DNA of 64,000 nt, from positions 124,001-188,000 of the forward strand of contig NZ_JACEFB010000005.1 of NCBI RefSeq assembly GCF_013694095.1. The letters are read 5' to 3'. Under the pieces are notes generated by a model, which was not told where the DNA came from, searched no databases, and saw only the letters and a list, made by a program, of their open reading frames with translations. Of the stretch, positions 1,656 through 52,119 are shown one piece after another. The position numbers and the translations under genes were made by a program. How positions within the stretch are numbered: position 1 is the stretch's first letter; every line of letters begins with the position of its first letter. The DNA is from Thermogemmata fonticola. Lineage in GTDB: Bacteria > Planctomycetota > Planctomycetia > Gemmatales > Gemmataceae.

Positions 1656-2360
1656 CTAGCGACCGTTCAGGGGCGGCACATCGCACACCAACGTCGCAAT
1701 GTGACGCACCGCTTCGTACTTCTTCCCGGCCCACTCGCCACTTCGTCGTTCGGTCACACGTGCTGCCACACAGTAGCGACCGCCTTCCTTGTAGATCGGG
1801 GTCAAGCCCTGGGTATCCGTCTTGACCGATGTGCTGCTGACTTCGCCCTTTTCCGCTTTTTCGGAGAGGTCTACGCTCACCTCCGCATCGGCCACTGTCT
1901 TACCCTGACGCCGCACCTGAAACCGCACCCCGCCATCGGCACGCAGCGGAACAATTTCCATCGGCAACGCCTCGCCCACCGCGTTGCCGGCTGCAAACGG
2001 GTCCCCCACGATAACCTTGGGATAGTACCACGTCAACATCGGCGGGTTATCCCCTCGCTGAGTCACCGCTGCTTCCGTTACTCCAAAAATGAGGCGCGGT
2101 TGATGCTCCTTCAAAAGAGCACGATAATAATTACCGGCCCCTTTTTCCACGACGAGCTTGTAGTCCTGGCCATTCACACTGCGGAGAGTCAACAAGGTTT
2201 TTTCGGCTCGCGTGGCTGGCGTCTTCGGATCCGGTGCGGCAGCGTGACCAAAAACCAAACGGGCCTCCCCTGCCTCACTACTCACATAAACAAACACAAA
2301 GTGCGCGAACGCTGAAAAACTTACCCCCAGTAGGACCACGGTTGCGACTGCAAGACGCAT
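1656..2360 (-). CDS. Secreted DUF4198-like protein
   Basis: This is a 234-aa protein with an N-terminal signal peptide (MRLAVATVV...SAFAH) and an all-beta look thereafter. The mature protein begins with an AHFVFVYV strand and contains V.VR..GKTVADAEVSV, resembling the DUF4198 and carboxypeptidase-regulatory-like periplasmic families often found near metal uptake genes in other bacteria. The ATG at 2360 is chosen over an upstream in-frame ATG because AGGAGG sits seven bases before it. It is convergent with glgA and divergent from the acyl-CoA dehydrogenase. The specific role is unknown, and the family call is by resemblance only. Confidence 0.6.
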   Translation of the reverse strand: MRLAVATVVLLGVSFSAFAHFVFVYVSSEAGEARLVFGHAAAPDPKTPATRAEKTLLTLRSVNGQDYKLVVEKGAGNYYRALLKEHQPRLIFGVTEAAVTQRGDNPPMLTWYYPKVIVGDPFAAGNAVGEALPMEIVPLRADGGVRFQVRRQGKTVADAEVSVDLSEKAEKGEVSSTSVKTDTQGLTPIYKEGGRYCVAARVTERRSGEWAGKKYEAVRHIATLVCDVPPLNGR

Positions 2361-2642
2361 GGCAATACCTCCTGGACTGGAAACCTGCACTGAACTTCGT
2401 CACGGGCGAAGCGACTGGAAATTCTTGCAGTCTTACCTTTTCGCGTTGCCAATTTAGGGACAACCGTTGATTCGCCAAGTCCCAGAGGTGCATCGACACC
2501 CACCGAGGGAAATAATTCCATGCCTGCGGTCTGAACCTTGGGATTCACCGCCTTCTGGGAACCACGCTGGGAGCTTGGCCCTCTTCCCTATCATAACTGT
2601 GGGACAGGCGTGAGGAATTCGAGCGGCACGGGAGCGGGAATC

Positions 2643-3833
2643 ATGGAACGAGATGCGGAGCGCTTGCTGGAGGACGTCGAGGCGTTCTGTCGGGAAATCC
2701 GGCCGATCGAAGAGCTGGCCTACGCGGAGCGGCGTTACAACGATCAGGTCATTCCTTTGGCCCAAAAACACAACTTGCTTGGCATGATCATTGATCCCGC
2801 CTACGGGGGGCGGGGAGCGGATACCGTCACCTACCTCAAAGCTCTCAGCCGAATTGGACGCGAGGGAACCACGGTCCGCACATTTTTCTCCGGTCATCTG
2901 AGCATCGGAGCCTATCCCATCCAAACCTGGGGAAGCGAGACCTTGAAGCGGAAATATCTACCCCGTGCAGCCAAAGGGGAATGCATCTTGGCTTTCGGCC
3001 TAACAGAACCGGAAGCGGGTAGCAATCCCCGCCAGATGACCAGCACCTACCGCCGCCAAGGTGAAGGATACGTACTCAACGGAGTCAAATATCTGATCTC
3101 CAACGGTGGCATTGCCGATGCGATTGTGGTTTTCGCCTATCCCGCGGACCTGCCTGAGTCGGACCCCCGCCGCCGCATCTCGGCATTTGTGATCGACACG
3201 CATGTCCCCGGCTTCGAGGCGGAAAGTTTCACCGCTCAGGCCAAGTTGGGGCTGCCCACCTCCAACACCGCCATGTTTTCCATGCACGAACTCTACATTC
3301 CCGCAGAAAACCTTTTGGGAAATGAAGGCGAGGGCTTCCGCATTGCCATGGGAACGCTAGTCAGCGGCCGCTTGAGTGTGGCAGCAGGCTGCCTTGGTGT
3401 GATTGAGGACTGCCTGGCCGAGGCCAGTCAGTATGCCAAGGAACGGGTTCAACACGGCAAGGAGATTGCACGTCATCAATTGGTGCAGGAACATATCGCC
3501 ATGATCGAGATGGCTCGAGTCGCCACTGCCGCACTCGTGCATCAGGCGGCTTTAGCCAAGGATCGGGCCTCTGCTCACCCCCAGGACCCGGCCCTGGCCC
3601 GCGAGGCGGACTTGCTAGCAGCCCAAGCCAAATTCTTCGCCTCCCATGCCGCTTGGGACGCCGCCGATCGCGCGGTGCAGGTCTTCGGAGGCCGTGGTTG
3701 GAGTACCTTGTACCGCCCGGCTCGCCACCTCGCTGACGTCCGCGTGTGCCGCATTTATGAGGGAACCGATGAAATCCTCAAGCTAAAAATCGCCGCCGCC
3801 GTGCTTGGTAAAGAGTGGGAAGCATTCCATTGA
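2643..3833 (+). CDS. Acyl-CoA dehydrogenase
   Basis: The 396-aa product is a cytoplasmic FAD-dependent acyl-CoA dehydrogenase, which makes the alpha,beta-double bond in acyl-CoA and passes electrons to ETF. Family signature 1 (FGLTEPEAGSN) is at about residues 118-128. Signature 2 (QVFGGRGW.. through IYEGTDEI) is near the C-terminus, with the probable catalytic base Glu373 in YEGT. The reading frame is open upstream to 2538, but the ATG at 2643 gives the usual family length and follows a GGGAGCGGG purine stretch. It stands alone, with no ETF or thiolase genes beside it, so the acyl substrate cannot be deduced. Confidence 0.93.
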   Translation: MERDAERLLEDVEAFCREIRPIEELAYAERRYNDQVIPLAQKHNLLGMIIDPAYGGRGADTVTYLKALSRIGREGTTVRTFFSGHLSIGAYPIQTWGSETLKRKYLPRAAKGECILAFGLTEPEAGSNPRQMTSTYRRQGEGYVLNGVKYLISNGGIADAIVVFAYPADLPESDPRRRISAFVIDTHVPGFEAESFTAQAKLGLPTSNTAMFSMHELYIPAENLLGNEGEGFRIAMGTLVSGRLSVAAGCLGVIEDCLAEASQYAKERVQHGKEIARHQLVQEHIAMIEMARVATAALVHQAALAKDRASAHPQDPALAREADLLAAQAKFFASHAAWDAADRAVQVFGGRGWSTLYRPARHLADVRVCRIYEGTDEILKLKIAAAVLGKEWEAFH

Positions 3834-11634: not shown

Positions 11635-13134
11635 ATGCAACGTTCGCACATCCTTGCTTTCATCCTAATTTGTGGTGGATACTTTCTGGCCATGTATCCC
11701 CACACGATGGTATTCCACCGTTTCTACTTTGGCGATAGCGGATGGCCATACACTGTAGAGATGATGCTACGGGAAGGCTTGATGCCGGTCACCGATTTCG
11801 CCTACTTTTATGGACTGATCGTATTACTCATCAACAAAATCTGGTTTGGCATTTTCGGCCTCACACCTGAAGCGTTGCTCTACATGTATATCGTCGGCAT
11901 CATCGCCTCGATGTATGGTGTTATCCAGACCGTGACAGCACTGAAGCTAGATCGCCTGGCCAACTTTATCATCGTGGTCGCTGGTCCCATCATGGTCAAC
12001 GCCGGACACCTGCTTCTGACACCGGTGCACATCCTAGAACCTGCCCTCCTGATCAATGCTCTAGCCGCCCAGGTGCGTGGTCGTTATGCCACGGCCTTAG
12101 CACTAACCACTCTAGCTGCTCTGATCAAGCCCTCGTTGGCTTACGTGTACGGTTTGCTTCTCATCATCCAAATCCTGGGCGGCTGGCTACCCCAGCAAGC
12201 CCATCGTCCACCCTGGCGTCAGCGGTTCTCCATGCTGCTGCCTGCCGCCGGCGTAGGTGCTGCGATCTCCGCCATTGTGGCCGCCTACTTCGGTATCGAT
12301 CGCTTCCTCCAAACGCAAATCCCATGGACAGCAAGCCAGGCTTATGCGGACTTTCGATTCGGCTTTTTCTACGGTGTGGGTCGTGAAATGTGGCGGCCTC
12401 AAGAATGGACACCTGCCCATTACTTTTTCACCATCGCTGGAGCTTGGATCACAGCTAGTATCGTCTTAGTGATCGGTACCCTAGTCAGTTTGCGATATCT
12501 GCATACCACAAGCGGAAGATTTATTGTCACCTGTGGCATCCTCCATTTGGTCTTTGTCTGTTTTCTCTTCGGCAATGAATGGTCCTGGATTTACTATCCC
12601 TACATTCTGTTTATCGGTGCAGCATTAGTGATAGATCGCGGATTAAAATATAGCAATAAGTTGGTTCAACTTTCCTGCATGTTTATCGGATTAACTCTGA
12701 GTGGATTTCTACTTTTTATTGTAGTATTTTTCTGGATGGGAATTAATGGAATCGAACTTTGGAAAACTCATAGCCGTAATCCCCAGACAAATATGTTGTA
12801 CGCCGATCGAGAGGACCGCGAGGCCTGGGCGGAGGTAATGCGTCTGTCCCAAACACAGCGGGTACTTGTCCTGAACCGCACCAATGCAGCTCATATCTTC
12901 TCGCCTCCCGTCGATGGCCCCCGCGTCTGGGTTTTGATCCGCTCGATCGCTACCCCTGGGGAAATGGAGCGAGTTCGCCAGCAAATTGCCCAGGCAAACG
13001 TGATTGTCAAACCGGAATGGCATGACAATGATTTACTGGAGTGGCCGGAATTTGCCGAAGACCTCCGTCCCTTCCGCCTGAGTCAGCAGTTCAAGCGATT
13101 CGCCTTGCTCACCCGTATGCATCCACAGAAATAA
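11635..13134 (+). CDS. Polytopic membrane protein, GT-C glycosyltransferase-like
   Basis: The 499-aa protein has about ten predicted membrane helices and a soluble C-terminal segment of about 110 residues. The first periplasmic loop holds FGDSGWPY and, after it, MPVTDFAYFYGLI. The acidic residue in the first loop and the DFxxxYG element are the pattern seen in GT-C type lipid-linked-sugar glycosyltransferases. I cannot assign a substrate. The start is preceded by CCGGGAGTCGCC. AT-rich codons between about 12,540 and 12,790 contrast with the GC-rich remainder. It is separated by 75 bases from the upstream FG-GAP gene. Confidence 0.6.
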   Translation: MQRSHILAFILICGGYFLAMYPHTMVFHRFYFGDSGWPYTVEMMLREGLMPVTDFAYFYGLIVLLINKIWFGIFGLTPEALLYMYIVGIIASMYGVIQTVTALKLDRLANFIIVVAGPIMVNAGHLLLTPVHILEPALLINALAAQVRGRYATALALTTLAALIKPSLAYVYGLLLIIQILGGWLPQQAHRPPWRQRFSMLLPAAGVGAAISAIVAAYFGIDRFLQTQIPWTASQAYADFRFGFFYGVGREMWRPQEWTPAHYFFTIAGAWITASIVLVIGTLVSLRYLHTTSGRFIVTCGILHLVFVCFLFGNEWSWIYYPYILFIGAALVIDRGLKYSNKLVQLSCMFIGLTLSGFLLFIVVFFWMGINGIELWKTHSRNPQTNMLYADREDREAWAEVMRLSQTQRVLVLNRTNAAHIFSPPVDGPRVWVLIRSIATPGEMERVRQQIAQANVIVKPEWHDNDLLEWPEFAEDLRPFRLSQQFKRFALLTRMHPQK

Positions 13135-13232
13135 CACCGTCCCAACTCCGCGACCAGCCACTAGCAGTCCGAGGTGAGCGACTAGCTTGATTGAAGCGAG
13201 CGTGAGAATTCGTAACATTTCTATGGGCAATA

Positions 13233-13257
13233 TCCCTGACACATTTCAGGTCAGGGA
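13233..13257 (+). promoter_or_regulatory. Perfect stem-loop in the leader before ilvH
   Basis: TCCCTGAC and GTCAGGGA form a perfect 8-bp stem around a nine-base loop, ending 34 bases before the ilvH start codon. No T run follows, so it is not a typical intrinsic terminator. It could be a leader element controlling ilvH or the end of the upstream transcript. No leader peptide rich in branched-chain codons was seen. Confidence 0.45.
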
Positions 13258-45219: not shown

Positions 45220-45646
45220 TTAGATTCCTCATCCGCCCGCCCGAACACCGCCTTATAACTCCCGCCGGTTTCCACGCAAGCACAAATTGATTTCCATCTC
45301 CCCACCCTGCCGCCACCTTCGACTTTCGTTCACTCCGCATGGTGCCCGTCCGTCTGGAGCTAGACTGCACGTTGCAAAATGGGATCAACCGAAACTTGCC
45401 TTGACGACTTCTGCTCGTGGTCACGAGATCAACGCACTGGACAAGTAGGTTGAGACGATAGCGGACAATCCCTATCACCGCGCCAGGTTTCACTCCGCCC
45501 ACCCTGGTTTGGGAAGCTCTCTAACTTGGGGACATCGACTCTTTCCCCTAGACCGCTTGATCGGAAAACCCCTTGACGTGAGAAAAGGGCATGATTATGG
45601 GGGTCGGACATTCTACAGGGGGAAGAATCCAGCAGGTGAGGCGTCG
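45220..45646. other. Divergent intergenic stretch of 427 bases
   Basis: This lies between the foldase gene (minus strand) and the patatin-like gene (plus strand). A 14-base palindrome CTCGTG-gt-CACGAG occurs at 45414-45427 and could be an operator. A TTGACG occurs at 45401 and another at 45573, but neither is followed by a convincing -10 box at the expected spacing. Confidence 0.45.
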
Positions 45647-46876
45647 ATGGCAGCTAAGCCAAGGCACCAGCCCAAAGGGGTGATGTCGTATGGGACCGCC
45701 GCCCAACTCGTGGTTATCGGGGTGGGCGCAGCCCTGGTGGGTTGCTGGCGAACCGAAATTCATCCTCCCCCGCTCGCCATTATTGAGCAACCATGGCTCA
45801 ATGTGGGTCCCACTTCACCAAGCCGGGACGGTGACGTGGAGACGGTCGTTGGATTGTCGCAGGTGCTCGCCGGCGAAGCCCCGAAGCGCGCTGCTGGCCG
45901 GCCCTTGAATATCCTGGTCCTTTCGGGGGGCGGCAAATACGGAGCCTTCACTGCGGGTGTTCTGGTAGGCTGGACTGCATCCGGTCAGCGACCGGTCTTT
46001 GATGTGGCCACCGGCATCAGTAGCGGAGCGATCGTAGCCACTCTCGCTTTTCTCGGCCCAAAATATGATGATAAACTTCGCAACGGCTTTACCACCTTGC
46101 GCCGCTCGGACTTGTTCGTCTGGCGCCCCATTCGCGGTCTGATCCGCGGTACCGGCTTGATGTCCGCCGCCCCGCTGGAAGAGCTGTTGGCCCGCGAAAT
46201 CACCCCCGAATTGATGAGCGAACTGCAACAGGCATACCACGACGGGCGCCGGCTCTACATTGGCACGGGCAACATCCTGACCAACCGCTTCACGGTGTGG
46301 GACCTAACAGCCATAGCGTCCAGCGGCCGACCAGACGCGCCCGTGCTCGTGCGAAAAATCCTACTGGCTTCCAGCGCAGTACCTGGCGTGGTCGCGCCTG
46401 TTGAATTCGATGTGGAAGTCAACGGAGTGCGCTACCGGGAGCTACACGCCGATGCGGGAAACATGGCCCAGGCATTTGTACGCACGACCGGCCCGATCCC
46501 GGCAGGTTCCACCATCTGGGTCCTCTCTGCTGGCAAGGTGTACCGCGATCCCCTCAAGGACCGACCCCGTGTGTTCGGCCTACTCGGCGGAGGCGTTTCC
46601 AATGCCCTTTATGCCCTGTTCCGTTCCGACCTGATCAAGCTCTACGCCCTCTGTGCTGTCACAGGGTCGCAATTCCGCCTCATTGCATTGCCCCAGGATT
46701 TTCCTGCCGAAACTAGCAGCTTTGCCTTCGACCCCGAAGAGTTGCAGCGGATGTTCTGGCTAGGGTATCAGATGGCCGCCTCGGGACAGGATTGGCGCAG
46801 TGTGCCGCCGGATACCCTTCCCGGCGAAGCCTCTCCTCCGCGGACTGGCTTTCAATTTGTCACCCCGCGTCCCTGA
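45647..46876 (+). CDS. Patatin-like phospholipase lipoprotein
   Basis: The 409-aa protein is a serine hydrolase of the patatin family, probably attached to the envelope as a lipoprotein: the N-terminus ends in ALVGC with Cys33. The glycine-rich oxyanion motif LSGGGKYGAFTAG and the nucleophile motif GISSG (Ser125) are intact. The catalytic aspartate is probably the HADAG element further on. The ATG at 45647 follows GGTGAGG, and an in-frame ATG at 45683 is also possible. Likely reaction: hydrolysis of acyl ester bonds in lipids. Confidence 0.85.
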   Translation: MAAKPRHQPKGVMSYGTAAQLVVIGVGAALVGCWRTEIHPPPLAIIEQPWLNVGPTSPSRDGDVETVVGLSQVLAGEAPKRAAGRPLNILVLSGGGKYGAFTAGVLVGWTASGQRPVFDVATGISSGAIVATLAFLGPKYDDKLRNGFTTLRRSDLFVWRPIRGLIRGTGLMSAAPLEELLAREITPELMSELQQAYHDGRRLYIGTGNILTNRFTVWDLTAIASSGRPDAPVLVRKILLASSAVPGVVAPVEFDVEVNGVRYRELHADAGNMAQAFVRTTGPIPAGSTIWVLSAGKVYRDPLKDRPRVFGLLGGGVSNALYALFRSDLIKLYALCAVTGSQFRLIALPQDFPAETSSFAFDPEELQRMFWLGYQMAASGQDWRSVPPDTLPGEASPPRTGFQFVTPRP

Positions 46877-47041: not shown

Positions 47042-48109
47042 ATGCCGTACCCGCAATTCGATCGCCGGCAGTTGCGATTGCAGCCGCTGTCCCAACGGCA
47101 GCATGATCTGACCCTCGATGTCATCCAACCTCTTAGTACCGTTCCCTCTTTCCATCATCCTGCTTTACCAATTCTGGCAGAACGACTGCTTCAGGCCCGG
47201 CAACGAGGAGCAGCCCGCATCTTGCTCATGGGCGCCCACGTGCTGCGAGCAGGAACCCAACGGTTTTTGATTGATTTAATGCGGCGCGGTCTGATCTCCC
47301 TGATCGCCATGAACGGCGCCGGTCCCATCCACGACTGGGAATTTGCTCTCATTGGCGCCACCACGGAAAGCGTCGCCCGTTATGTTTCCAGCGGAGAATT
47401 CGGCTTGTGGGAAGAGACGGGCCGCATCAATGACGCCGTGGTTCAAGGCGTGCGGGCCGGCATGGGTTTGGGAGAAGGGATCGGGCGGGCCATCGCCGAA
47501 GGGTGTTTCCCTTACAAGGACATTTCCGTCCTCGCCCAGGCTTACCTGTTGCGCATTCCCGTTACGGTGCACATCGGCATCGGCTACGACATCATTCATG
47601 AGCATCCCAACGCCGATGGCGCCGTGCTAGGCCGGGCCAGCTACACGGATTTCCTCATCTTCGCCGAGCATATCCGCCAGTTGGAAGGCGGCGTGGTGCT
47701 CAATTTTGGCTCGGCTGTCATGGGACCGGAGGTGTATCTCAAGGCTCTAGCTATGGCGCGCAATGTCGCCCATCAGCACGGCCAACGAATCGCCCGCTTC
47801 ACCACGGCGGTCTTTGATTTGGTTCCTCTGGATGACGACTATCGCCGCCAAGCTCCGAAATCCGATCCCCGCTATTACTTCCGCCCTTGGAAGACAATTC
47901 TGGTCCGTACCGTAGCGGATGGGGGGGAGAGCTTTTACATAGCCGGGGATCACAAGGACACGCTTCCTGCTCTCTGGCACGCTGTGCAGCGCTTGGACCC
48001 TCAGCCCGCACCTGATCCATCCGTTGCGCCCTCACCGCGCACCGCCGAAGGCTCTACCGCCTCGACCTCGATCACGGATACCCCAACTCCTCCCGCCGCC
48101 CAATCCTAG
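47042..48109 (+). CDS. Deoxyhypusine-synthase-like protein
   Basis: The 355-aa cytoplasmic protein shows a deoxyhypusine synthase (DHS)-like plan. GAARILLMGAHVLRAG and ISLIAMNGAGPIHDWEF (NGAGPIHD at 91-98) correspond to DHS NAD-binding strands. GGVVLNFGSAVMGPE (216-230) matches the family's GGG-containing region. The C-terminal FTTAVFDL... followed by RPWKTILV (W283-K284) resembles the DHS active-site lysine block. The substrate cannot be eIF5A in an ordinary bacterium, so the reaction is unknown. A long disordered Pro/Ser tail follows residue 320. The ATG at 47042 is preferred to earlier frame codons. It is followed by a PfkB kinase gene. Confidence 0.68.
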   Translation: MPYPQFDRRQLRLQPLSQRQHDLTLDVIQPLSTVPSFHHPALPILAERLLQARQRGAARILLMGAHVLRAGTQRFLIDLMRRGLISLIAMNGAGPIHDWEFALIGATTESVARYVSSGEFGLWEETGRINDAVVQGVRAGMGLGEGIGRAIAEGCFPYKDISVLAQAYLLRIPVTVHIGIGYDIIHEHPNADGAVLGRASYTDFLIFAEHIRQLEGGVVLNFGSAVMGPEVYLKALAMARNVAHQHGQRIARFTTAVFDLVPLDDDYRRQAPKSDPRYYFRPWKTILVRTVADGGESFYIAGDHKDTLPALWHAVQRLDPQPAPDPSVAPSPRTAEGSTASTSITDTPTPPAAQS

Positions 48110-48176
48110 TACAATGGGCAGCACCTATTCTCTCAGACACCCTCGATCTGGAACGCGAGACATTCCGGGTTCTGCT

Positions 48177-49190
48177 ATGCTCAACGACTCGGTGATCGAT
48201 CGCATACTGGCTCACTTACCCCGCTGTACCATCGGAGTACTGGGCGACCTGTTTCTGGATCGGTACCTGGACATCGACTCCCATTTGAACGAACCCTCAC
48301 TGGAAACAGGTCTGACGGCCTACCAGGTAGTGCGCATCCGCAGCTACGCCGGAGCCGCGGGAACGGTGATCAACAATCTGGCGGCATTGGGAACGGGGCG
48401 TATCCTGCCCATCAGCTTCATCGGAGATGATGGAGAAGGTTATGAGCTACGCCAAGCCCTAGCCCGTTGGGCGAATGTCGATGGCCGCCATATCCTCATT
48501 ACGGCAGAGCGCCGCACCCCCACTTACACCAAACCGATGCTCGACGGACGGGAATTGAATCGGCTCGACATCAAAAACCGCACTCCAACACCTCCCCTCC
48601 TCGAAGAGAAACTTTGTGAAAAACTCCAGGAGTGCTGGCACGAGGCAGACGCTTGGCTGGTGCTGGATCAAGTCAGCGAGGCAGATTGCGGCGTGGTGAC
48701 GGGACGGGTGCGTGAATTGCTGGCCCAGTTGGCATCCCAGGACCCCACCAAGTTCGTCTTGGCCGACAGCCGGGAACGGATCGGTCTGTTCCGCCACGTC
48801 AGTCTCAAGCCCAATGAGCGGGAATGCCGCCGGGCTTGTGGTGCGGGACAGGAAACCCCGATCGAACACTGCGTCGAGCAGTTGGTCCGGAGTGGTGGGC
48901 GAACCGTCTTTTGCACTCAAGGGGAAGCAGGCATTTTGTTAGGAGAAGAGCAGGAGGGCCGTGTCCGCCTCCAGCGGGTTGCAGCTTACCCCGTCACTGG
49001 CCCGATCGATCCTGTCGGTGCAGGAGATAGCTGCTCGGCTGGGATTGTCAGCGCTGTCCTGGCGGGAGGCAACCGGGCAGCAGCGGCGGCTTTCGGGAAC
49101 CTGATTGCGTCTATCACCATCCAGCAGATCGGAGTCACCGGTACGGCGACACCCCAGCAGGTCCGGCAGCGGTGGCAGATCGTAAAGTAG
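48177..49190 (+). CDS. PfkB-family carbohydrate kinase (RfaE-like)
   Basis: This is a 337-aa ribokinase-type sugar or nucleoside kinase. GVLGDLFLDRYLDI opens the fold, then YAGAAGTVINNLAALG and GRILPISFIGDDGEGYEL. The PfkB signature 2 region is GPIDPVGAGDSCSAGIVSAVLAGG, with the catalytic Asp in GAGDS. It resembles heptose kinases such as the N-terminal half of HldE/RfaE, but the substrate is unknown. The frame opens earlier inside the preceding gene, but the ATG at 48177 gives a normal start (MLNDSVIDRILAHL). It lies 67 bases after the deoxyhypusine-synthase-like gene. Confidence 0.85.
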   Translation: MLNDSVIDRILAHLPRCTIGVLGDLFLDRYLDIDSHLNEPSLETGLTAYQVVRIRSYAGAAGTVINNLAALGTGRILPISFIGDDGEGYELRQALARWANVDGRHILITAERRTPTYTKPMLDGRELNRLDIKNRTPTPPLLEEKLCEKLQECWHEADAWLVLDQVSEADCGVVTGRVRELLAQLASQDPTKFVLADSRERIGLFRHVSLKPNERECRRACGAGQETPIEHCVEQLVRSGGRTVFCTQGEAGILLGEEQEGRVRLQRVAAYPVTGPIDPVGAGDSCSAGIVSAVLAGGNRAAAAAFGNLIASITIQQIGVTGTATPQQVRQRWQIVK

Positions 49191-49194
49191 CTCC

Positions 49195-50496
49195 ATGGCC
49201 CCCTCTCCCTCTACCTCCGAGTGCCCGACCCCTCCGCCCTCTGACTCTAGCGGCTGGTTCAATCGCACGGTTTGGGGAGCGGGCCTGACCAGTTTTCTCT
49301 CCGATGTCAGCTACGAAATGGCCTCGGCGATCCTGCCGGCATTCTTGCGGCTGCTGCACATTCCCCCCGAAAGCGTGGGCCTGCTTCTCGGCTGGATCGA
49401 AGGGATCGCCGATCTCAGCTCCAATGCCGTCAAGCTGATCATGGGTTGGTATTCTGACCGAATCGGCCACCGCAAGCCCTACGTGGTCGCCGGCTATACC
49501 TTGACCGGGGTCGCCTTCGTTCTGTGCGCTGTAGCAGTCAGTTGGCCCTTGGTACTGGCGGCCAAGGTGATAGGTTGGATTGGCAAAGGATTGCGCGGTC
49601 CCTTGCGCAACGCCATTTTGGCGGATGCCGTACCGCCGCAGCACGTCGGCAAAGCGTTCGGCTTCCATCGTGCCGGGGACACCTTGGGAGCCATCATCGG
49701 GCCACTATTGGGAGCCGCTCTTCTTGCCTATCTCCCGCCGGAGTGGTTCGATCAACCCGATGAACCCTACCGTTTGATTTTCCTGCTCACATTGATCCCC
49801 GGTCTGGCAGCAGCCATCGCGTTTGCCGTTCTGGTCCGTGAACAACGTTTTACTCCCCGACCGGCTTTGCGTTTCACTGCTTCCCTCCGTTCCCTACCGA
49901 AGGATTTCCGGCGTTACCTGCTGCCGGTGTTCGTGTTTGGCATTGGGGATTTCTCCCACGCCCTACTGATCCTGACCGCAGGCTTGCTGCTCACCCCGCT
50001 TTATGGCATGCCCTCGGCAGCGGTCTGGGCCGGCGTGCTTTATGCCATTCGCAACACCGCCGGGGCTTTGACTGCTTATCCGGCGGGGTGGCTAGGCGAT
50101 CGCTTCGGACGCCGACGCGTCCTTGTCGCCGCTTATCTCCTAGCCGCTGCCGTCATGTTCGGATTTACGCTCCTGACCCTCAATGGCTGGACCCATCCTG
50201 TCATTCTGATTCTCCTCTTCACCCTGGCTGGTGTTTACATTGCGATGGAAGAAGCACTAGAACCTGCGATCACCGCCGATCTGGTCCGCGACCGATCTCT
50301 CCGTGGCACAGCGATGGGCGTGCTCGCTACCGTCAACGGATTGGGAGACTTCATTGCCAGCGCCGCTGTTGGAAGCTTGTTCCTACTAGGTCAACCCTAT
50401 GCTTATGCGACCGCTGCTATCCTCATGTTCCTCGGCGCCGTGCTGCTCATTCCCCGTACCGGCCACGTGGAACCCCCTCCCCCTTCTTCAGATTGA
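49195..50496 (+). CDS. MFS transporter
   Basis: The 433-aa inner-membrane protein has about twelve predicted helices and the pattern of major facilitator sugar/drug transporters. It begins after a short cytosolic Pro/Ser segment with FLSDVSYEMASAILPAFLRLL. A conserved loop motif between helices 2 and 3 is GWYSDRIGHRKPYVVAGY (the G-x-x-x-D-R-x-G-R/H-R/K signature), and GWLGDRFGRRRVLVAAY repeats it in the second half. It starts 4 bases after the PfkB kinase stop, so the kinase and transporter could act on a common substrate. Confidence 0.9.
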   Translation: MAPSPSTSECPTPPPSDSSGWFNRTVWGAGLTSFLSDVSYEMASAILPAFLRLLHIPPESVGLLLGWIEGIADLSSNAVKLIMGWYSDRIGHRKPYVVAGYTLTGVAFVLCAVAVSWPLVLAAKVIGWIGKGLRGPLRNAILADAVPPQHVGKAFGFHRAGDTLGAIIGPLLGAALLAYLPPEWFDQPDEPYRLIFLLTLIPGLAAAIAFAVLVREQRFTPRPALRFTASLRSLPKDFRRYLLPVFVFGIGDFSHALLILTAGLLLTPLYGMPSAAVWAGVLYAIRNTAGALTAYPAGWLGDRFGRRRVLVAAYLLAAAVMFGFTLLTLNGWTHPVILILLFTLAGVYIAMEEALEPAITADLVRDRSLRGTAMGVLATVNGLGDFIASAAVGSLFLLGQPYAYATAAILMFLGAVLLIPRTGHVEPPPPSSD

Positions 50497-50859: not shown

Positions 50860-52119
50860 ATGGTGTGGTTCATCCAGCGTGATGATATCATCGAGTTTCA
50901 GGACAATCCGGAAGGATTCTGGGCGCCACAGGTCATGTCGCAGCACCCTCTGCGGCTCGAAGCGATGCGGGGCCGGCCGATCTCCATCCGCGGGAAAGGA
51001 GCGGTGTGGATGTATGCCCACGCAGGTGCGATGGCCCAAGCAGCAGGTGCGGCGTCGATCCACCTGAAGGAACTGATCCGCGGGAACTCGTCCGATATCC
51101 GCCAGTGCTTGTGCAAACTCGAAGAGTCACGCCAACATCCAGGCTGCTATCTCTGGCAGATGCAACTCAATTCGGTGCAGGACCTGAAACCCGAAGCCAT
51201 CGAGAGCCTACTAGAACCTACCCTTAAGGAAATCCGAGAGAAACGTCCACGGGAACTCTGCCTGACCGGCAAAGCCCCCGTCACAGTTTATGCCCGCGTG
51301 GCCTGGGAGGCTGTAGCCGCGGGATGCCAGCACCTTTACTGCCTAACGCCGATCCACGATTGTATTCTGGTTTACAGCACTTCGGACTCGCAATTAGGGG
51401 AACGCCTTCCCCTCCCATGGCTAGAGCAATTCGTACCCCAGCCGCAAAAATCCATGATCCTCGGCGTCATCGGGGACCCCAACTCCGGGAAGTCTGTATT
51501 TGCCCGTGCTCTTTATGCTTGTCTCCTGAGCCGAGTCATCTCTCAGCAGCGGCGCTTGTGGATTTTGGATTGCGACGGCCAATCACCCACCCCTGCGTGG
51601 TATCTCAGCCTGCTCCAGGAGGGACATGTCGAACTCGCCCGGCAATATCGCGACATTCTCAAGGAGCGCCGCCGGTGGACCCCCACCATGGAGGATCACT
51701 TTGTCCGCATTCTCCAAGGTCTGCGCCGCTTCTTTGAGTTGGTGATCACGGACCAACCGGGAGGAGACCTCGGAGCGGATCCACCCCAACGGATTCCTCC
51801 AGGACGGGAGCGATTCTTCCAGCAGCTCGATGAATTGATCCTCGTAGCTCGCGAAGGGGAAGTCACCTGGAAACTATGGCATGATGAGTTGGCCCGGCAC
51901 GGCCTGGCCCACCGCTTGCGGGTCATCCTGTATGGCTCCCATCCTGAGGCACCCCCCACGCTGCAACTTACCCGCCAAGGCGATCTGTGGATCGGCACAG
52001 TGCAAGGTCTGGAACGCACGCGCACCAAACAGGAACTGGTCCAAGCGTTTCAGCCCGTCCTGGAGCCGCTCTGGGAAGATTGGCGACAGCGATTGCGCTC
52101 CTGCGTAGCGGAAGTTTGA
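50860..52119 (+). CDS. Tandem Csx3-like domains fused to a P-loop ATPase
   Basis: The 419-aa cytosolic protein carries two segments resembling the CRISPR-associated ring nuclease Csx3 (Crn3). Repeat 1 (about residues 39-72) has RPISIRGKGAVWMYAHAG, repeat 2 (about 102-185) has ELCLTGKAPVTVYARVAWEA, then HLYCLTPIHDCILVYST. Both match the Csx3 strand G(K/R)GPIWL. The conserved Asp-Pro-Arg of Csx3 is not kept, as the second repeat has TPIHD. An ATPase follows: Walker A GDPNSGKS (205-212), DGQSPTPAW (239-247), RRWTPTMEDHF (271-281) and ITDQPGGD (296-303). This order matches Csx3-AAA fusions. GGAGGG precedes the ATG. Confidence 0.62.
   Translation: MVWFIQRDDIIEFQDNPEGFWAPQVMSQHPLRLEAMRGRPISIRGKGAVWMYAHAGAMAQAAGAASIHLKELIRGNSSDIRQCLCKLEESRQHPGCYLWQMQLNSVQDLKPEAIESLLEPTLKEIREKRPRELCLTGKAPVTVYARVAWEAVAAGCQHLYCLTPIHDCILVYSTSDSQLGERLPLPWLEQFVPQPQKSMILGVIGDPNSGKSVFARALYACLLSRVISQQRRLWILDCDGQSPTPAWYLSLLQEGHVELARQYRDILKERRRWTPTMEDHFVRILQGLRRFFELVITDQPGGDLGADPPQRIPPGRERFFQQLDELILVAREGEVTWKLWHDELARHGLAHRLRVILYGSHPEAPPTLQLTRQGDLWIGTVQGLERTRTKQELVQAFQPVLEPLWEDWRQRLRSCVAEV

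Follow-up and report, generated by a model that had tools for sequence, protein, structure and literature searches.

Deoxyhypusine synthase (DHS) and ornithine cyclodeaminase both remove a hydride, and DHS gives the hydride back. The substrate of the C-terminal ornithine cyclodeaminase of ArgZ/AgrE, and of the TIGR00300 proteins, is an amino acid. Heptose is a sugar of the bacterial outer membrane. HldD (TIGR02197), the ADP-heptose 6-epimerase, belongs to an unrelated family and works by transient oxidation at C6. The nickel-pincer nucleotide (NPN) is completed by LarC.

The GSU2086 family (NCBIfam NF052581; Geobacter sulfurreducens GSU2086) carries no assigned function. By locus tag, GSU2086 lies between gmhA and hldE, and a G. 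sulfurreducens Tn-seq table gives similar scores for all three genes: -3.1 for GSU2085 (hldE), -3.2 for GSU2086 and -3.7 for GSU2087 (gmhA) (PMC5585712). In the open-licence literature we found no publication giving a function or cofactor for GSU2086, and none joining NPN and ornithine cyclodeaminase; the NPN papers found there on phylogenetic profiling, cyclodeaminase or heptose concerned, judging by their listing, LarA-type proteins.

Results and Discussion

The gene pair and its neighbours

The window (the whole 64-kb stretch of DNA analysed here) contains three adjoining genes on the forward strand: one for a 355-aa protein (47042-48109, starting with ATG), one for a 337-aa PfkB-family kinase (48177-49190), and one for a 433-aa MFS transporter (49195-50496; PF07690, E = 9.6e-47). 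The first two are separated by 67 bases, and the MFS reading frame begins 4 bases past the kinase stop. A preliminary description of this DNA had reported these reading frames and gaps, and we confirmed the coordinates and both distances. It had read the first protein as DHS-like from the segments NGAGPIHD, VVLNFGSAVMGP and RPWK, all of which are present. The second protein is a PfkB-type kinase, as described there (PF00294, 96.8 bits, E = 1.9e-27; cut-off 25.8). The closest named relatives of the 355-aa protein are from Gemmataceae MAGs (77-86% identity by tblastn), in agreement with the planctomycete assignment implied there.

Directly upstream of the pair is a gene for a patatin-like phospholipase (45641-46876; PF01734, E = 8.8e-20) with weak likeness to CBASS-type phospholipase effectors. 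A 419-aa P-loop protein (50860-52119) matched no Pfam family above cut-off; PADLOC matched it to Csx3-AAA, a CRISPR-associated fusion (E = 7.8e-7).

Family and fold of the 355-aa protein

We found that the 355-aa protein matches the GSU2086 family model NF052581 with 390.4 bits (E = 6.6e-117; cut-off 250), residues 5-314 aligning with positions 1-301 of the 301-position profile. It shares the conserved residues of 142 aligned members, in which H66, H97, E100, D183, D203, K234, N241, D259 and R281 are invariant. These matches identify the protein, at the level of sequence and predicted structure, as a GSU2086-family member with the DHS/ornithine-cyclodeaminase fold.

Profile searches with the window protein gave no match to PF01916 (DHS) at E<=0.1, none to the NCBIfam DHS models, including TIGR00321, at E<=0.01, and none to TIGR00300 (cut-off 410.8) or to the HldD model TIGR02197 at E<=0.01. 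A phmmer search of the PDB with the same protein gave no matches. PF21570, the ArgZ-like C-terminal Rossmann domain, matched it below threshold (E = 7.4e-4). We then compared 60 sequences of the window type ("type B"), consisting of the window protein and 59 relatives (alignment A2). At E<=0.1, PF21570 matched 58 of the 60, whereas PF01916 matched 20 weakly (best 8e-5). Because of this difference, we consider the ornithine-cyclodeaminase (ArgZ/TIGR00300) branch, by Pfam matches, to be the nearer relative. The profile of alignment A1 gave weak matches to ArgZ and AgrE, and TIGR00300 weakly matched 9 of 18 family members (best 2.2e-5). L-fuculose-phosphate aldolase matched 2 of the 18 (best E = 0.0034), which we judged to be chance.

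Profile-profile comparison (hhalign) gave 91.6% probability for DHS over 263 columns and 92.4% for ArgZ-type proteins over 71 columns. An AlphaFold2 model made from alignment A2 had a pLDDT of 92.3 and a pTM of 0.88. Foldseek and VIA-align placed the C-terminal domain of AgrE/ArgZ on top (6lrf_B; Z = 19.9, 220 residues, rmsd 3.1), with the LOR/SDH protein 3c2q (Z = 18.6) and human DHS (9iej_A; Z = 18.6, rmsd 3.6, 254 residues) close behind; the spread in Z among the three is little above 1. The DHS likeness noted in the preliminary description is therefore upheld for the fold and for the remote, full-length profile comparison with PF01916, but not for a direct match, and the ArgZ branch is nearer. 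The window protein has an HDxE...G.T motif in common with ArgZ/AgrE and TIGR00300. It differs from ArgZ/AgrE in lacking their N-terminal domain and in its conserved His/Lys set outside that motif.

Conserved residues and the amine reading

H97 (codon 47330-47332), in the NGAGPIHDxE motif, is present in 142/142 family members and aligns with the conserved His of ArgZ/TIGR00300. K234 (codon 47741-47743), in PEVYLKAL, is likewise invariant (142/142). K284 (codon 47891-47893), the lysine of RPWK, is found in all 83 type-B members and in none of 24 members linked to LPS genes. It lies close to the "SWGK" region of DHS, a stretch where the profile alignment is uncertain. The catalytic lysine of human DHS is K329. 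The LPS-linked members lack K284, so this lysine is not a catalytic residue of the family as a whole.

The preliminary description had taken the pair to indicate an NAD- or amine-dependent modification, distinct from hypusine formation, with the kinase supplying the substrate. A DHS-like enzyme carrying out NAD-dependent amine transfer or protein-lysine modification would suit the fold and the invariance of K284 within type B. We regard it as very improbable. In addition to the distribution of K284 and the failure of PF01916 to match the window protein, the same genome encodes one PF01916 protein, on a different contig, of the homospermidine-biosynthesis type (NF001980, 563.8 bits; cut-off 450), which indicates that the DHS-type role is filled elsewhere. 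We saw no sign of amine chemistry around family members. At 44 of 50 flanked type-B loci (defined below), at least one of a kinase, a HAD hydrolase and a SIS protein lies within 3 kb, and such neighbours point to sugar phosphates. For these reasons we rejected a hypusine or polyamine function as the main reading. The part of the earlier proposal that excluded hypusine formation agrees with the lack of a DHS profile match for the window protein. The gene pair is real and conserved, and its first member is not a DHS.

The kinase and the type-B loci

The best NCBIfam model for the window kinase was TIGR02198 (HldE), with 111.6 bits against 54 for the next family, and its nearest relative is the heptose-7-phosphate kinase domain of HldE. 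The score is below the cut-off of 345, and the window kinase, unlike HldE, has no adenylyltransferase domain. By its profile matches the second protein is thus a PfkB kinase resembling that of HldE/HldA.

A scan of contigs for window-type relatives gave 80 type-B loci, whose record titles place them in Planctomycetota, Armatimonadota, Chloroflexota, Acidobacteriota, Nitrospirota, Deltaproteobacteria, Firmicutes, Patescibacteria and archaea. We counted same-strand neighbours within 3 kb at the 50 loci flanked by 3 kb or more of sequence in each direction. An HldE-like kinase was present at 42 of the 50 (within 300 bases at 34), a HAD hydrolase of a single family at 28, and a GmhA-like SIS protein at 22. 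All three were absent at 6 loci. The kinase was absent at 8, including two in Gemmataceae (L040 and L041); at the closest loci (L036, L037 and L038, also Gemmataceae) the GSU2086-family gene and the kinase are kept, followed by MFS. The partnership with PfkB suggested in the preliminary description therefore extends across many phyla, in a setting that has not been described. HldE-like kinases, GmhA-like SIS proteins, HAD hydrolases and heptosyltransferases as neighbours point to sugar phosphates. Several type-B operons also adjoin genes for a ROK kinase, Gfo/Idh, xylose-isomerase-like and DUF4432 proteins, and sugar ABC transporters.

Two modules are on plasmids. One, from Chloroflexota (L034, 7170-10600), is beside a sugar ABC transporter; its SIS protein is nearest to gmhA (TIGR00441, 118 bits) and its kinase to TIGR02198 (138 bits). 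The other (L035, 10453-13534), on Solidesulfovibrio pDCAR1, is beside acylneuraminate genes.

We compared FastTree phylogenies of 142 GSU2086-family and 101 kinase sequences. The split between LPS-linked and other members was concordant in 100 of 101 pairs (support at the splits 0.85-0.91), L217 being the single discordant pair. This concordance shows, as far as gene trees can, that the GSU2086-family protein and its kinase diverged together into LPS-linked and window-type pairs. The window copy belongs to a separate branch from the LPS-linked members, with its own kinase and without LPS neighbours. A third branch (L192, L206-L211, L214-L216 and L218) has genes with an insertion, so that the profile matches them in two separate parts; HAD and kinase genes of the kinds named above adjoin some of them.

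LPS-linked relatives and the distribution of HldD

The genome that contains the window has a second GSU2086 member (C1:750358-751254), in the order lpxK, GSU2086, HldE, heptosyltransferase II, and no HldD above cut-off. Many of 59 further regions around family members in Planctomycetes had the order LpxK-GSU2086-kinase-adenylyltransferase.

We found that GSU2086 and HldD are nearly exclusive. Among 294 Planctomycete genomes, 141 had GSU2086 and 74 had HldD above cut-off. HldD was present in 8 of the 141 GSU2086 carriers, in contrast to 66 of the 153 non-carriers (odds ratio 0.08, Fisher p = 1e-14, with genomes that are non-independent samples). Five families, identified by eye, alternate between the two enzymes with no genome containing both; the numbers of genomes with HldD and with GSU2086, respectively, were 6 and 4 (f33), 4 and 2 (f58), 1 and 5 (f43), 1 and 1 (f85), and 1 and 2 (f23). 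Of the eight genomes with both enzymes, four were examined at the GSU2086 locus, which was LPS-linked in one (L197, genome G018), type B in one (L173), and a long variant in two (L206 and L209).

We also considered genomes with the HldE adenylyltransferase, which was above cut-off in 200 genomes. Among the 149 of these in the matches listed, 77 had GSU2086 only, 43 had HldD only, 3 had both and 26 had neither. Eight of the 26 had an HldD match just below cut-off, and 3 had GSU2086 below cut-off.

A proposed heptose-type module

We suggest that the window pair arose by duplication of a heptose-activation unit and is now a specialised paralogue of it, in which the GSU2086-family protein is a redox epimerase. 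We give this reading a probability of about 0.5; a duplicated heptose-type epimerase and kinase is the most likely identity of the pair. DHS and ornithine cyclodeaminase remove hydrides and HldD oxidizes C6, so an epimerase with hidden redox chemistry would be their natural sugar counterpart. GSU2086 proteins would act on a sugar phosphate by oxidizing one of its secondary carbons and then reducing it again, while a bound cofactor of the NAD or NPN type accepts the hydride. In LPS heptose synthesis the family would take the role of HldD, inverting C6 of D-glycero-D-manno-heptose as the phosphate or the ADP-sugar. For the window we propose that the type-B copy epimerizes a heptose-like sugar phosphate, that the PfkB kinase adds a phosphate at the anomeric position, and that the MFS protein transports the sugar in its free form or a compound related to it. 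In other genomes the adjoining GmhA-like SIS isomerase would interconvert ketose and aldose, and the adjoining HAD phosphatase would remove the distal phosphate. We favour a step on the sugar phosphate that precedes the kinase or runs alongside it, because GSU2086 usually adjoins the kinase, at LPS-linked as well as window-type loci, and many type-B loci were seen without an adenylyltransferase.

The proposal draws on the family and fold, the lpxK-GSU2086-HldE-heptosyltransferase II locus in a genome with no HldD above cut-off, the near-exclusion and within-family alternation of GSU2086 and HldD, the predominance of GSU2086-only and HldD-only genomes among the 149 in the matches listed, the neighbours of type-B copies, and the concordant gene trees. 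The gmhA-GSU2086-hldE order in Geobacter, with similar scores in the Tn-seq data, is consistent with it (PMC5585712). On the other side, the known fold relatives (DHS and ornithine cyclodeaminase) use amines as substrates. The exclusion of HldD is chiefly a property of the LPS-linked type and extends to the window copy by homology alone; eight genomes have both enzymes above cut-off, and 26 of the 149 in the matches listed have neither. Eight of the 50 type-B loci have no kinase nearby, and the 64-kb window contains no gene of the HAD, gmhA, LarC or ROK families seen at the other loci, and so neither the isomerase nor the phosphatase of the module. The sugar may not be a heptose, as the kinase and SIS proteins score far below the curated HldE and GmhA cut-offs.

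Two other accounts of the same genes are less probable. Within the same sugar-phosphate module, GSU2086 might carry out another redox-assisted step leading into GmhA and HldE, such as an NAD-dependent lyase or a ketose rearrangement, and not a replacement for HldD. Gene context names a pathway and not a step, and organisms that make D,D-heptose would likewise show an absence of HldD. However, reciprocal exclusion that alternates within families fits substitution better than simple loss, and we consider this account rather unlikely. Still less probable, in our estimate, is a catabolic module in which a rare sugar, taken up through an MFS or ABC transporter, is converted to a central sugar phosphate by one or more kinases, an isomerase and the type-B protein, as in salvage of L,D-heptose to sedoheptulose 7-phosphate. 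The MFS gene adjoining the window pair would fit, and the ROK kinase, Gfo/Idh, xylose-isomerase-like, DUF4432 and ABC-transporter genes near several type-B operons suit catabolism as well as they suit a heptose-type biosynthetic unit. Biosynthesis is indicated by type-B copies within surface-sugar clusters, such as the one on pDCAR1 (L035), where acylneuraminate genes and a fusion of kinase and adenylyltransferase are part of the cluster. If the heptose-activation proposal is correct, it would provide a function for a conserved family that has none assigned and would name a missing LPS-heptose enzyme of bacteria without HldD.

LarC and the nickel-pincer nucleotide

We used LarC as the marker of NPN synthesis in host genomes. 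In Planctomycetes, LarC was present in 130 of 141 GSU2086 carriers vs 90 of 153 non-carriers (p = 1e-11; non-independent genomes). All 87 Planctomycete carriers with completeness of at least 90% had LarC, and the 11 carriers without it were 73-87% complete. In a second phylum (that of genome G314), LarC was present in 186 of 202 carriers vs 102 of 134 non-carriers (p = 6e-5). Outside Planctomycetes, 40 of 50 genomes with type-B loci had LarC; it was missing from five of the eight in Firmicutes (L081, L086, L089, L104 and L111).

LarC was beside GSU2086 at one locus, L045 of Ornatilinea apprima, among the 80 type-B loci, two plasmid loci, L158 and 59 further regions. There, the gene for a divergent second LarC (12063-13244) separates that of the type-B kinase from that of a ROK kinase, and the LarC2 domain of this LarC scores 130 bits with NF052512 (cut-off 50).

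NPN dependence of the family deserves serious consideration. The case is better for LPS-linked members than for the window copy, for which it falls short of being established. LarC is common in the phyla examined, and although the genome containing the window has LarC (region L159), its presence there is also explained by a TIGR00300 protein (546.7 bits; cut-off 410.8); for these reasons the window copy cannot be assigned NPN. The phrase "nickel-pincer nucleotide-dependent" attached to TIGR00300 is the name of an NCBIfam model and serves here as a label only. A wider reading is bolder and less probable than the heptose-module proposal. GSU2086 proteins might be the sugar branch of an NPN-using superfamily with the DHS/ornithine-cyclodeaminase fold, acting as non-LarA epimerases in place of HldD when LPS heptose is made in Planctomycetes and in delta-proteobacterial lineages, and the type-B protein with its HldA-like kinase might form a second, undescribed pathway for a heptose-like sugar phosphate. 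About 15% of genomes encode NPN synthesis but no LarA, and what non-LarA proteins depend on the cofactor there is a question raised in PMC11796402; the family, if this reading is true, would be a candidate. In the genome containing the window, ArgZ is split into two adjacent genes (C1, L004): a cyclodeaminase gene (937-2247), which encodes the TIGR00300 protein mentioned above, is followed by an arginine dihydrolase gene (2330-3157).
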